Shown here one piece after another: positions 2,674 to 18,186 of a DNA stretch of 21,368 nt (its first letter is position 1; each line of letters starts with the position of its first letter). The stretch comes from a virus, in the IMG/VR virus record IMGVR_UViG_3300007511_000184, positions 1 through 21,368 of that record, one strand, 5' to 3'. The position numbers and the translations under genes were made by a program. Under the pieces are notes generated by a model, which ran no database searches, was not told where the DNA came from, and worked only from the letters and a program-made list of their open reading frames with translations.

Positions 2674-3690
2674 ATGCCATCAATTAACCAAGTCGTAGAC
2701 GTAGCGACTTCAATACTACGTAAATCACCAACTGCTGTACCTTTCTTTAAAGGTAAGCCGGGAATGGGAAAATCTGATGCTTGTATCCAAGTGGGACACA
2801 ACCTAGATATATCAGATGATCGCATTCTAGTTGTGCATGTGAACAACCACGATGTAGTGGACTTTACCGGTGTGCCATCAGTAACCGATGATGGAGTAAC
2901 GATATTCAACCCGACCGACATGTTCTACAAGTTCAGAGAGGGAACGGGTGCAGGGCTTATCGTACTAGAGGAACTACCACAGTCCTCGACTCATCACCAA
3001 ACGTGGGCGGCGGGTTTTATCTTGGAACGCTCTACACCAACGTTCAAACTAGACAAAGATGTACGGTTTGTTGTAACGGGTAACCGAGTAGAGGACAAAG
3101 CAGGGGCGAAACAGTTACTAACGCACCTATCCAACCGTATGTATGAGTTCGAGATGGAAACGTCACTAGACGATTGGTGTGAGTGGGCGATGACGCATGA
3201 TGTAGACCCGTTAGGTATTGCGTTCATGAGATTGCGACCGCAACTGTTGAACGACTTCGACCCGATGCGTTCAGTCAATCCAACACAAAGGGCGTGGACT
3301 CAACTGTTCACAGAAGTACCCCGTGACTTGCCAACAGACTTATATATGTACGCTTGTGAGGGTAAAGTTGGTGAGGGAGCGGCGGCTGAGTGGGTAGCGG
3401 CACGTTCACTAATGAGCAAGATGCCATCAGTTGACTCAATCAGACTGCAACCCGATAAGACCGAAGTGCCGGAAGAACCCGCAGTGAAGTACGCAGTAGC
3501 GACTGCGTTAAGTATGACCGCAGAACCCGACTCGTTCGATAGGGACATGAAGTATGTAGCCCGTATGCCAAAAGAGTTTCAGATGGTGTATGTAACTGAC
3601 GCACTACGACTACACCCCGAGTTGCAACAGACGAAGGACTTTATTACTTGGGCGGTTGCCAACAAGGACATCTTTATGGGGGGTGAGTAA
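2674..3690 (+). CDS. MoxR/CobS-like AAA+ ATPase
   Basis: This 338-residue AAA+ ATPase has a Walker A at residues 27-34 (GKPGMGKS, with K33 and S34), a Walker B ending LIVLEE at 95-100 and a sensor-1 TGN at 135-137. The Walker B acidic pair is Glu-Glu rather than the usual Asp-Glu. The length and fold match MoxR-family ATPases, often labelled CobS-like in phages; nothing here indicates cobalamin synthesis. MoxR ATPases typically act with a VWA-domain partner to remodel or activate target proteins, and such a partner lies at 5368 with a DUF3150-like gene between. AGGAG precedes the ATG. The start is also supported by the palindrome and hairpin upstream. This is the first gene of the long 2674-9487 unit. 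Confidence 0.85.
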   Translation: MPSINQVVDVATSILRKSPTAVPFFKGKPGMGKSDACIQVGHNLDISDDRILVVHVNNHDVVDFTGVPSVTDDGVTIFNPTDMFYKFREGTGAGLIVLEELPQSSTHHQTWAAGFILERSTPTFKLDKDVRFVVTGNRVEDKAGAKQLLTHLSNRMYEFEMETSLDDWCEWAMTHDVDPLGIAFMRLRPQLLNDFDPMRSVNPTQRAWTQLFTEVPRDLPTDLYMYACEGKVGEGAAAEWVAARSLMSKMPSVDSIRLQPDKTEVPEEPAVKYAVATALSMTAEPDSFDRDMKYVARMPKEFQMVYVTDALRLHPELQQTKDFITWAVANKDIFMGGE

Positions 3691-8957: not shown

Positions 8958-9101
8958 ATGTACGACATAGGCGAAATAGTAGTAGGTGGTGTACTTTTAG
9001 CAAGTGCGGGGGCACTTGTGTACGCTTCCGACTTTAATAGAAACGTAATCAATAAATCAAAAAAGGAGACTAAAAATGTTAGATGTGAACGAACTAAGTA
9101 A
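8958..9101 (+). CDS. small membrane protein, 47 aa
   Basis: ATG 8958 follows the previous stop by one base; the ribosome binding site is poor, so translation is likely coupled. Residues 5-24 (GEIVVGGVLLASAGALVYAS) form a single transmembrane helix, followed by a short Lys/Arg/Asn-rich tail. The last 26 nt overlap the start of the winged-helix gene, and the AAAGGAG serving that gene lies inside this frame. The function is unknown. Confidence 0.45.
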   Translation: MYDIGEIVVGGVLLASAGALVYASDFNRNVINKSKKETKNVRCERTK

Positions 9102-9384
9102 GAAGTGGAACCAAATTTTAATTATAAGAGAACTGAAGGACGACTTATCCACATACGAGAGTAAATCCCTAAGCGATACGGAGTTTGCGATGCTATGTCA
9201 TATCGCCCACCAAAACGGTAACGCGAACATCACTAGTATCGCCAAACACCCGTACTTCGCTGTGACGTCACTGTCGACTGTTAAACGTGCGGTAGTGCGA
9301 CTGATGAGCGAGGGGTTAATACGTACCAACAACACATCACCGGATAGACGTGAGAATATGTTGGAGGTGGTAGACAATGGGTAA
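9076..9384 (+). CDS. winged helix-turn-helix (MarR-like) regulator, 102 aa
   Basis: AAAAGGAG upstream of ATG 9076. Residues 33-95 follow the MarR/winged-helix pattern: an initial helix (DTEFAMLCHIAHQNG), a recognition-helix region (TSIAKHPYFAVTSLSTVKRA), then VVRLMSEGLIRTNNTSPDRR ending in a wing. The N-terminus forms a helix that could support dimerisation. It is probably a DNA-binding transcription factor, and a dimer of such a protein would be a natural candidate for binding the dispersed palindrome or the TGTCTTATT array. That link is inference. It overlaps the next gene by 8 nt. Confidence 0.7.
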   Translation: MLDVNELSKKWNQILIIRELKDDLSTYESKSLSDTEFAMLCHIAHQNGNANITSIAKHPYFAVTSLSTVKRAVVRLMSEGLIRTNNTSPDRRENMLEVVDNG

Positions 9385-9487
9385 GGCGATAATCCTCACG
9401 CTTATGTGGGTAGGACTTACAGGGTTAGTAGTCTTTATAGGGTGGACTGCCAAGCCTAGTGGTAACTGGAAATTAAATAAAAAGTAA
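9377..9487 (+). CDS. small membrane protein, 36 aa
   Basis: TTGGAGGTGG precedes ATG 9377, overlapping the regulator gene by 8 nt. Residues 4-24 (AIILTLMWVGLTGLVVFIGW) form one transmembrane helix, followed by a basic tail (KPSGNWKLNKK). Spacing and ribosome binding site are good for a real gene. It closes the long unit begun at 2674; a palindrome copy follows 16 nt later. The function is unknown. Confidence 0.5.
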   Translation: MGKAIILTLMWVGLTGLVVFIGWTAKPSGNWKLNKK

Positions 9488-9503
9488 AACCCGTTAGCGT
9501 GTG

Positions 9504-9522
9504 AAAGTCCACTGTGGACTTT
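9504..9522. repeat. dispersed palindrome, copy f
   Basis: AAAGTCCACTGTGGACTTT, perfect, with T at the centre instead of A. It lies 51 nt upstream of the gene at 9574, directly after the last gene of the preceding unit. The right flank TTAGC matches that of copy d. Confidence 0.9.
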
Positions 9523-9573
9523 TAGCAGGAGCATGCCAACTTAATAACACTGCACAACTCAAGGAGAGTAGTA

Positions 9574-9897
9574 ATGAAAAAGAAAGATAAAAATTCAATT
9601 GCCAGTAAGGCACGTAAAGCAGGCTTGGAGCCTAGAGTAGTATACGCACGAATGAACAAAGGGTGGTCGCTTAAGAAAGCGTTATCGACACCGGTGCGTG
9701 AAACCAAGCGACATGCTAAGGTTAAAGATAAGGAGCCAACGGTGGCTAAGAGTGTCACGACTCATAAGCGCGTCGCACCTAAATTGAACAAGCCGGTAGT
9801 AGAACACTACAAATCAGATAGAGGTCTAAACAAAGCCGTTTTGTTCAGCTTAGGTATTATAATCGCTCTTTTAATGGTTTTAATATTGGGGGGATAA
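9574..9897 (+). CDS. HTH-like protein with C-terminal membrane anchor, 107 aa
   Basis: AAGGAGAG precedes ATG 9574. The N-terminal 45 residues follow a helix-turn-helix-like phage motif: SKARKAGLEPRVVYARMNKG, then WSLKKALSTPV. A very basic middle follows (46-80), and residues 87-106 (AVLFSLGIIIALLMVLILGG) form a transmembrane helix ending at the C-terminus. It would be tail-anchored with a cytoplasmic DNA-binding-like head, so it could tether DNA or a repressor to the membrane. The neighbour at 10113 carries a similar head motif. The role is otherwise unknown. Confidence 0.65.
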   Translation: MKKKDKNSIASKARKAGLEPRVVYARMNKGWSLKKALSTPVRETKRHAKVKDKEPTVAKSVTTHKRVAPKLNKPVVEHYKSDRGLNKAVLFSLGIIIALLMVLILGG

Positions 9898-10116
9898 ATG
9901 AACCTACATGACAATAAGTTATGCAAAAAGAAGTGCGACTGCGTTATGAACATGCTTGCCGAGGTGGAGGAACTATTGCAGTACCCTCGGTCGGATAGAG
10001 AACAACTCATCAAGAGTAAGGTTGAGTTGGTACTCCAAGACATTCAGTACTTGTCCCGTGAGATTGATGGCGACAAGGACGACTACTTAATGACTTACGC
10101 TAAGGGTTGGAAATGA
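9898..10116 (+). CDS. unrecognised small helical protein, 72 aa
   Basis: ATG directly follows the previous TAA, with GGGGGG as the ribosome binding stretch. Cysteines cluster at residues 9-15 (CKKKCDC); the rest is amphipathic helix (AEVEELLQYPRSDREQLIKS and on), likely a coiled coil. No known domain is recognised. It overlaps the next gene by 4 nt (ATGA), so the four genes 9574-10534 are a coupled unit. Confidence 0.55.
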   Translation: MNLHDNKLCKKKCDCVMNMLAEVEELLQYPRSDREQLIKSKVELVLQDIQYLSREIDGDKDDYLMTYAKGWK

Positions 10117-10403
10117 CTAGAATATACAAAACGAAAAAGTTTGAACTATCAGACAGTAGTGTGATGGACGCGCGTGAAATAGTGGAAAAGTACAACGTGC
10201 CTCTAGGAACCACTAGGACTAGGTTATCTAATGGCGTTCGAGATGTTGAGGTGTTAAGTAAACAACCACTGTCACACAAACAGAATAAGTACCGAAACAC
10301 GGGAGCCTCTAACGAATATATACCCGAGAAAACGGTTAAGGAGAAAATAGCGCAACGTAACTTTTTCTGCCCCATGTCTCGATTAGCACTGAAAACGATA
10401 TGA
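10113..10403 (+). CDS. HTH-like phage protein, 96 aa
   Basis: I chose ATG 10113 (ATGA overlap); a TTG two codons upstream is possible. Residues 20-50 (DAREIVEKYNVPLGTTRTRL, then SNGVRDVEVLSKQP) fit the same phage helix-turn-helix pattern as the N-terminal part of the 9574 gene (GLxxxxVYARxxxGWSxxxAL). The C-terminus is basic and ends FFCPMSRLALKTI, a tail I associate with conserved small phage proteins. It is likely a DNA-binding regulator. It overlaps the next gene by 4 nt. Confidence 0.6.
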   Translation: MTRIYKTKKFELSDSSVMDAREIVEKYNVPLGTTRTRLSNGVRDVEVLSKQPLSHKQNKYRNTGASNEYIPEKTVKEKIAQRNFFCPMSRLALKTI

Positions 10404-10534
10404 GCTGGTATTGTCAAATGGTAGATGGCGAACGTCGATGTATGGACTGGGGAGAGTACCGCAAATATGGTTGGGTACTGAGTAAGTCATTCACAGTTGA
10501 AGAGTACATGGGCGTATTCAAAAAGAAAGGTTAA
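10400..10534 (+). CDS. unrecognised small protein, 44 aa
   Basis: ATG 10400 overlaps the previous TGA (ATGA) and the frame runs to TAA 10532-10534. The peptide begins MSWYCQMVDGERRCMDWGEY and is rich in Trp and Tyr, with two cysteines (C5, C14). It is a compact basic protein without a membrane segment. The stop lies 5 nt before the long hairpin begins. The coupling supports it being real; the function is unknown. Confidence 0.55.
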   Translation: MSWYCQMVDGERRCMDWGEYRKYGWVLSKSFTVEEYMGVFKKKG

Positions 10535-10538
10535 CAAC

Positions 10539-10638
10539 TAGCCCCCTTACCATAGGGTTAAATTTTAGTATGCTCTCTCACCTTGGCATTCATAGAGTGC
10601 CTTGCGTACTAAGGTCTAATCCTATTTTAAGGGGGTTA
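10539..10638 (+). ncRNA. 100-nt near-continuous hairpin (RNA element or processing site)
   Basis: The strand 10539-10573 pairs with 10604-10638 over 35 positions. By eye, all pair as Watson-Crick or G-U except C10550/C10551 against T10627/T10626 and A10561 against C10616. The terminal segment holds an 11-nt bulge side (10574-10584), a second hairpin, GGCATTC-ATA-GAGTGCC (10585-10601), and a TT. It fills almost the whole gap between two genes and has no T-tract, so it is not a standard terminator. A long helix with an asymmetric internal loop resembles phage RNase III processing sites; a MITE-like insertion or a regulatory RNA is an alternative. A weak TTACCA-16-TATGCT promoter-like pair lies inside it (10547-10574). 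Confidence 0.75.
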
Positions 10639-10653
10639 CACTAGGAGAATAAT

Positions 10654-10830
10654 ATGGAACAACACAAACACGCAGAAGTAATTCACGCTTGGGCTGAAGG
10701 TTACACTGTACAGAAGAAACACAAACTGTGCTGTGATAAGAAGTACGCCAAGTGGGTAGACTGCGACTCAACACCTTTGTGGTTCGAAGACGAGGAGTAT
10801 AGGATTAAACCGTACAAGGAGAACGAATGA
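10654..10830 (+). CDS. small conserved phage protein ending in a YRIKP-type motif, 58 aa
   Basis: CTAGGAG precedes ATG 10654, 15 nt after the long hairpin. The sequence HAEVIHAWAEGYTVQKKHK followed by a Trp-Val-Asp segment and WFEDEEYRIKPYKE fits a widespread small phage family (helix, WxEG, VQ, then a strand pair ending in YRIKP) of unknown function. It overlaps the DNA polymerase gene by 4 nt (ATGA), so its translation is linked to polymerase expression. Confidence 0.65.
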   Translation: MEQHKHAEVIHAWAEGYTVQKKHKLCCDKKYAKWVDCDSTPLWFEDEEYRIKPYKENE

Positions 10831-12788
10831 ATATTTGTACAGTAGACCTAGAGACCTTTTGGGACGTTGGCCACTCCCTAACCAAGATGTCACCTATCGC
10901 ATACTGTATGCACCCCGACACCGAAATCATTAGTTGTGCGTTTAAGTTCAACGATGAGGAAACCGAAGTAATTTTCGGTGAGGAAAACGTAAAGGAATAC
11001 TGCGCGAAAGTAGATTGGTCACAGTATTGGGTAGTAGGGCACAACCTATCGGGGTTCGACTCTATGATTTTATCGTGGCGTTTAGACATTAACCCAAAAC
11101 TATGGGGTTGTACCTTGGCGATGGCTCGACCTATCCACGCTAAAGATGTAGGACTGTCGTTAGCCAAGTTGGTTCAGCACTACCGCTTAGGCAAGAAAGA
11201 CAACTTCGCATTGTTGCAGACCAAGGGTAGACACCTATGTGACTTTACTGAGCAAGAGATTAAAGACATGGGCGTGTACAACAAAGAGGACGTTGACCAA
11301 TGCTACGGACTGTTGCGACGACTCATACCGCAGACTAAGAAGCCCGAGATACTACTGATAGACATGACGATACGTATGCTCATTGAGCCTCAGTTTGATT
11401 GCGACGACGATTTACTGAATAACACCTTGGTAGAAGAAGTTGAGAGAAAACGTACCGCACTACTAGAAGCATCGAAACAGATGGGCGTGTACACCGCTGG
11501 GTTCCGATTACCCCATGGTACGTTTGACGAGTCCGCATTAGAAGCAGAGGAAGATGAAGCCGTCGAGCAAGTACTAAAACTACTTTCGTCGGCGCCGAAG
11601 TTCGGTAAGTTCCTAGAGTCGTTAGGGGTAGAAGTACCTACGAAGATATCTCCAAGGACTGAAAAAGAGATACCTGCCCTAGCGAAAACAGATGAAGCGT
11701 TCATCGCAATGCAAGAGCATGAGAACCCGTTAGTAGCCGTCGCTGCCAACGCGAGGCTTGACGCTAAGAGTACGATACTTCAGACGCGAATACAAGCGTT
11801 TCTAACCGCCGCAGAGGCGCACCCACAGCACAAGGTTCCTATCCCTTTGAAGTACTACGGAGCGGACACAACTGGGCGTTGGAGTGGCTGGGGTTACAAC
11901 CCGCAGAACCTTCCACGTATCAACCCATACAAACCTAAATTATCAGATGCACTACGTAAATCGCTTAGAGCTCCACCAGGCTACAAGGTAGTTGTTGCTG
12001 ACTTATCGGGTATTGAGTTGAGGGTTAACCACTTCCTATGGCAAGTTCCATCAAGCATGGAGCTGTTCCAAGAAGACGTTGAGAACGCAGACTTGTACAA
12101 GGACTTCGCTAGTAAGTTGTACGAGGTCAACCCCGACGAAGTGACGAAAGAACAACGTCAAGTAGGTAAGGTCGCCCACCTCGGACTAGGTTTTGGAGCA
12201 GGGCATATTACGTTCCAAACAGTAGCGAAGACTATGGGTGGTGTAGATATCAACTTAGAGGAGTCTAAAGAGATTGTAGATACGTGGAGAATGAGTTACT
12301 CAGACATCACTAGAGCGTGGCGTAGGTGTCATAATGTACTACCTACTATTATGCGAGGAGCAGAGGGCGGAGCAGTAGACCCTTGGGGCATGGTGTACCC
12401 AACACCGGAAGGACTTCAAACCCCTAAAGGTGTAATCAGATATCCTAACCTTCGAACAGAAGTAAACGAGGAGACGGGTAGAAGTGAGTTCATCTACGGT
12501 GACGGTCGTAACAAGGCAAGGATTTATGCAGGTAAGATTGTGGAGAACATCGTGCAACATCTAGCCCGACATGTAATCGCCGACAACGCATTAGATATGC
12601 AACGAGAGACGGGGTTAATACCTGCGCTAACAGTACACGATGAGTTGGTTTACGTCGTACCGGAAGACAAGGCACAAGAGACACTAGACACCGTACAGCG
12701 CATAATGCGAACACCTCCAACATGGTGGCCGGAACTCCTTACGTGGAGCGAAGGCGACATCGCTGACACATACGGCGACGCTAAATAA
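10827..12788 (+). CDS. family A DNA polymerase with 3'-5' exonuclease domain
   Basis: This 653-residue family A (Pol I/T7-type) replicative polymerase copies the phage genome and proofreads. The exonuclease domain shows DLE (D7, E9), GHNLSGFD (71-78) and the YxxxD motif Y151-D155. The polymerase domain shows TTGRWSG (348-354), motif A DLSGIELR (D392, E397), motif B with R444 and K448, and motif C HDE (604-606). Its length is close to that of T7 gp5. The position matching E. coli F762 is Leu (L452), and that matching Y766 is Phe (F456). The ATG overlaps the previous gene (ATGA), with AAGGAG upstream. Residues 165-167 are encoded by an ACGACTCAT copy. Confidence 0.95.
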   Translation: MNICTVDLETFWDVGHSLTKMSPIAYCMHPDTEIISCAFKFNDEETEVIFGEENVKEYCAKVDWSQYWVVGHNLSGFDSMILSWRLDINPKLWGCTLAMARPIHAKDVGLSLAKLVQHYRLGKKDNFALLQTKGRHLCDFTEQEIKDMGVYNKEDVDQCYGLLRRLIPQTKKPEILLIDMTIRMLIEPQFDCDDDLLNNTLVEEVERKRTALLEASKQMGVYTAGFRLPHGTFDESALEAEEDEAVEQVLKLLSSAPKFGKFLESLGVEVPTKISPRTEKEIPALAKTDEAFIAMQEHENPLVAVAANARLDAKSTILQTRIQAFLTAAEAHPQHKVPIPLKYYGADTTGRWSGWGYNPQNLPRINPYKPKLSDALRKSLRAPPGYKVVVADLSGIELRVNHFLWQVPSSMELFQEDVENADLYKDFASKLYEVNPDEVTKEQRQVGKVAHLGLGFGAGHITFQTVAKTMGGVDINLEESKEIVDTWRMSYSDITRAWRRCHNVLPTIMRGAEGGAVDPWGMVYPTPEGLQTPKGVIRYPNLRTEVNEETGRSEFIYGDGRNKARIYAGKIVENIVQHLARHVIADNALDMQRETGLIPALTVHDELVYVVPEDKAQETLDTVQRIMRTPPTWWPELLTWSEGDIADTYGDAK

Positions 12789-18147: not shown

Positions 18148-18162
18148 TCTCGTCAATATAGG

Positions 18163-18186
18163 AGCCGGGGTTCGCCCCGGTTTTTT
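18163..18186 (+). terminator. strong rho-independent terminator
   Basis: CCGGGG (18165-18170), tetraloop TTCG, CCCCGG (18175-18180) and T6. A perfect 6-bp all-G/C stem with a TTCG loop is a strong intrinsic terminator. It follows the ssDNA-binding gene, and palindrome copy g begins 11 nt later. Confidence 0.95.

Follow-up and report, generated by a model that had tools for sequence, protein, structure and literature searches.

A long intergenic hairpin between two mosaic junctions of a phage genome as a candidate lineage-specific mRNA spacer

Gene surroundings of the hairpin

The window analyzed here (the whole stretch of 21,368 nt, positions 1 to 21,368 of IMG/VR record IMGVR_UViG_3300007511_000184) carries a hairpin that fills 100 of the 119 bases between two small genes, orf45 and orf58, beginning 4 nt past the stop codon of the former and ending 15 nt ahead of the ATG of the latter (Table 1). 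The neighboring genes are all encoded on the plus strand, and orf58 runs at its end into the beginning of a gene for a family-A DNA polymerase, in keeping with the original prediction of a hairpin between genes and just ahead of replication genes. The ribosome-binding site of orf58 is predicted to be mostly open, with an unpaired probability of 0.78-0.96 in the ensemble. Searching prokaryote genomes with the polymerase returned no relative, and hence no host is suggested.

Table 1. Coordinates of the hairpin and its neighboring genes in the window
Feature	Position	Strand	Remarks
orf45 (44 aa), upstream gene	10400..10534	+	homologues in L003, L013, L018, L019, L047
Hairpin 5' arm	10539..10573	+	pairs with 10604-10638
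Apical region with 7-bp hairpin	10574..10603	+	MFE and centroid folds concur
Tip hairpin pairing	10585-10591 with 10595-10601	+	loop of 3
Hairpin 3' arm	10604..10638	+	pairs with 10539-10573
Predicted ribosome-binding site of orf58	10644..10648	+	GGAGA; 5 nt past the stem
orf58 (58 aa), downstream gene	10654..10830	+	phrog_34112, E 2.9e-24, function unknown
Family-A DNA polymerase gene	10827..12788	+	Pfam DNA_pol_A, E 4.4e-22; phrog_17, E 4e-71

Structure and statistics of the hairpin

Recounting the two arms gave 27 Watson-Crick pairs, 5 G-U pairs and 3 mispairs (C.U, C.U and A.C) over 35 positions, exactly the extent and number of mispairs originally predicted, and the 7-bp hairpin at the tip was likewise present in the fold. 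This pairing (32/35) is the top score in the window for 35-nt arms at most 60 nt apart, against a maximum of 27/35 in 12 mononucleotide shuffles of the window as a whole. Thermodynamic folding of the plus-strand RNA yielded -49.5 kcal/mol versus -23 +/- 3.25 for shuffled sequence (z -8.15; none of 200 dinucleotide shuffles equalled the energy of the hairpin), and a scan of both strands revealed it as the lowest-energy 110-nt stretch of the window by a wide margin. The minus-strand RNA folded at -34.4 kcal/mol (z -4.3), and single-stranded DNA parameters gave a z of -3.2. Within a 181-nt context the mean pair probability was 0.97, and the hairpin persisted in a context of 431 nt.

The stem is followed by TTACACTAGG rather than by a run of T, and a terminator scan found no plus-strand site at the hairpin, such that an intrinsic terminator is ruled out here, as had been anticipated; a plausible true terminator of the phage, with a GC-rich stem and a T-run, lies at 18160-18185. 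Rfam searches of the hairpin returned no match at the gathering score and, at a permissive threshold, nothing meaningful beyond sub-threshold chance matches to microRNA hairpins.

The original prediction held that the structure was selected as RNA, and here the outcome is mixed. The bias in stability toward the plus strand (z -8.15 vs -4.3) is consistent with it, but the argument drawn from G-U pairs is weak. Relative to a perfect palindrome the arms hold six transition-type mismatches, of which five still pair on the plus-strand RNA and the sixth on the minus-strand RNA; if the ancestor was a perfect DNA palindrome in which transitions yield a plus-strand G-U half of the time, at least five of six on the plus strand arise by chance with a one-sided p of 0.11, which is not significant. 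The strand bias of the mismatches is thus weak evidence for selection at the RNA level.

Distribution among relatives

Among relatives, which were viral contigs fetched by homology to the polymerase, the hairpin was present in only one other contig, L002, which is nearly the same phage and carries it unchanged between flanks 99.3-99.8% identical to the window, so that misassembly of a single contig cannot account for it. No such structure was found at the corresponding place in the contigs with the upstream genes in common (L003 and L013), in those with orf58 in common (L005, L010 and L061-L067, with the orf58 proteins of L061-L066 being 98% identical), or in the relatives that share the polymerase. 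In L005, the spacer after the upstream gene (3265-3372) showed weak pairing only (z -1.4). Scanning the relatives with a stricter stem search and by z-score recovered other hairpins, none of them homologous or similarly placed. One of these, a strong hairpin of about 20 bp (CCATACCTAAAAGCGCATTGC...) on the minus strand of L099 (17526-17625, z -5.4), is unrelated in sequence to that of the window.

Wider searches gave the same picture. Probes for the ends, arms and tip recovered from 2.9 million viral contigs only the sister contig and two chance matches (arm-probe matches in L114 and L115, both unstructured); the exact 11-bp ends at the spacing of the hairpin were absent from 84,980 prokaryote genomes; and phage and plasmid records held nothing credible that matched the hairpin, a 21-nt match in Streptomyces phage Faust being at chance level (E 0.3). 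The window itself holds no second copy.

Since the sole other copy is identical, there is no variation in which covariation could appear, and confinement to one species-level phage leaves no sign of long-term selection. Because relatives with the upstream genes, orf58 or the polymerase in common do without it, the hairpin does not, judging from the contigs compared, represent a regulatory element conserved in this phage group. Part of what the original prediction had named as counting against it was thereby found, as relatives sharing one flank lack the hairpin; none of the relatives examined has an identical orf45-orf58 junction.

Mosaic junctions on either side

Comparison of the flanks revealed that homology to L003 and L013 breaks off upstream at 10528-10530 and that homology of the orf58 cassette starts at 10636-10643. 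With homology breaking on either side, the hairpin makes up the stretch between two recombination boundaries, which we regard as the most informative new fact about this locus and which the original prediction did not contain. Phages whose polymerases differ greatly carry the orf58 cassette at 93-97% DNA identity, and by these alignments orf58 is a recently exchanged cassette.

Two further observations concern orf58. Phages with very different polymerases have in common an invariant stretch of about 95 nt (10684-10779), and five contigs (L001, L063, L065, L066 and L068) all terminate within the gene, as expected if several phages in one sample share sequence.

A candidate structured mRNA spacer and its rivals

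The hairpin is real and statistically striking and occurs in one lineage only, and a function for it seems plausible. The reading that we favor, tentatively and at somewhat less than even chances, is that of a structured spacer in the mRNA, specific to this lineage, that would part the upstream message from the orf58-polymerase message either as a cleavage site of RNase III or as a barrier to exonucleases. This lineage would have gained the spacer as orf58 was placed between orf45 and the DNA polymerase gene. Its long double-stranded stem would presumably form during synthesis of a polycistronic plus-strand mRNA and could then serve as a substrate of host RNase III, or as a plain block to 3'-to-5' exonucleases and to ribosome run-on, with the message of the upstream small genes parted from that of orf58 and the polymerase while the orf58 ribosome-binding site would stay open. 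A T7-like cut within the stem would let the downstream mRNA start roughly 25-40 nt ahead of the orf58 start codon. Supporting this reading are the plus-strand stability, the all-plus genes, the tight intergenic fit, the open ribosome-binding site, the five of six mismatches that pair in plus-strand RNA, and the T7 control sites, which lie in the same type of place. Counting against it are the confinement to one species-level phage, the p of 0.11 for the mismatch bias, and the lack of sequence likeness to T7 sites.

RNase III sites of the T7 type call for intergenic double-stranded RNA of sufficient length, and at 32 pairs over 35 positions (z -8.15), interrupted by small symmetric internal loops, the stem exceeds RNase III substrates in length. 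As a control we folded T7's five early RNase III sites at what we take to be their coordinates in the annotated T7 record, checked by this folding, which gave -18 to -25 kcal/mol (z -3.3 to -4.9) for sites 27-35 nt upstream of start codons. Like them, the hairpin is a stable structure in a short gap between same-strand genes, near the next start codon and without a T-tract. Unlike them, it has no sequence in common with these sites, its stem is longer and more stable (32 pairs of 35, -49.5 vs -18 to -25 kcal/mol), and it is the only one in the window, itself a part of the genome, where T7 has several per message. Cleavage is established for T7, whose early mRNA is cut by RNase III at five such sites (PMC4858673), and is a candidate property here.

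The PeSL (promoter early stem-loop) cassettes of T4-type phages, as described where PMC4503421 cites Arbiol et al. 2010 and Comeau et al. 2014, also feature a stem-loop at the borders of small-gene cassettes that can be exchanged. In contrast to these, the hairpin is single copy and does not recur at other cassette boundaries, and no sigma-70-like match was found on the plus strand in 9000-11000, a scan that phage-specific promoters would escape.

The strongest rival is that the hairpin is near-neutral filler, either a palindromic scar of the gene swap or a single-copy insertion from the recombination that joined orf58 to orf45, tolerated since it neither terminates transcription nor hides a ribosome-binding site. 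We consider this rather unlikely, though it draws on the position exactly between two mosaic junctions, on the absence outside near-identical relatives, on palindrome deviations with a non-significant RNA-strand bias only, and on a direct repeat of 5 bp, ACTAG, close to each end (10536-10540 on the left, the 10641-10645 region on the right). Chance alone, however, would put such a repeat this close to both ends in a few per cent of cases, and its copies do not abut the inverted repeat symmetrically, the right one being offset by about 4 bases. No donor copy turned up in the window, viral contigs, prokaryote genomes or plasmids, and an unselected stem of 35 positions should decay fast, although it may be young.

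A narrower form of the structured-spacer reading joins that mosaic origin to a function, with the hairpin as a newborn processing site, a cis-acting RNA recruited at the gene-swap junction that would re-insulate the polymerase message after the arrival of orf58; we hold this unlikely. Should the hairpin be functional, it would be a very recent case of a mosaic phage keeping neighboring messages apart after a gene swap, for which the relatives with and without it offer natural controls; should it not be, it would caution against taking even a spectacular hairpin, seen in a single phage, for a conserved regulator.

Doubtful to a similar order is a translation insulator or attenuator, whereby the stem, independently of any nuclease, would bar orf45 ribosomes from re-initiating and set the rate at which orf58 and the polymerase are translated. 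The placement of the stem, 4 nt past one stop codon and 5 nt ahead of a ribosome-binding site predicted to be open, would suit such a role, but no alternative structure was found that would switch this site, and in relatives the same polymerase is expressed from behind spacers that differ greatly. A free-standing small regulatory RNA, transcribed from a dedicated promoter or freed from the mRNA, is improbable: the 100-nt fold is compact, stable and self-contained, but the plus strand showed no promoter-like site in 9000-11000 and no terminator behind the hairpin, and Rfam gave the sub-threshold chance matches described above and none at gathering level.

Least probable is a MITE-like mobile DNA element, which the original prediction had listed and which shares with prokaryotic MITEs and REP-type palindromes a palindromic, intergenic sequence of around 100 bp, here with inverted ends TAGCCCCCTTA/TAAGGGGGTTA and a possible ACTAG duplication, offset on the right; a spreading MITE family is unlikely, as the hairpin is a single copy for which no family was found, its end patterns have no other match in the 2.9 million viral contigs or 84,980 prokaryote genomes, arm and tip probes reached nothing beyond the sister contig and two chance matches that lack structure, and plasmids gave no match.

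Other repeats and genes

Elsewhere in the window, a near-perfect palindrome, AAGTCCAC(A/T/CG)GTGGACTT, occurs in seven copies of 20-22 nt each (521, 1120, 1789, 2565, 3987, 9503 and 18197), and a stricter form of it gave 10 strand matches vs 0.04 expected. The copies are mostly intergenic, just ahead of gene starts or past a terminator, and the palindrome is also found in the relatives L096 (5446, 14344 and 17578), L108 and L110. These palindromes are candidate operator sites, and a candidate binder is the 102-aa MarR-like winged-helix protein encoded at 9076-9384 (Pfam MarR, E 3e-4, narrowly missing the curated cut-off). At 1385-1663, TAAGACAATAAGACA / TGTCTTATTGTCTTA recurs in clustered inverted and direct repeats, possibly a replication origin or another protein-binding region. 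Among the relatives, the family-A DNA polymerase gene of L061 (143-2563) is split by an intein-like insert, with an HNH-like open frame at 1227-1796 in another frame.
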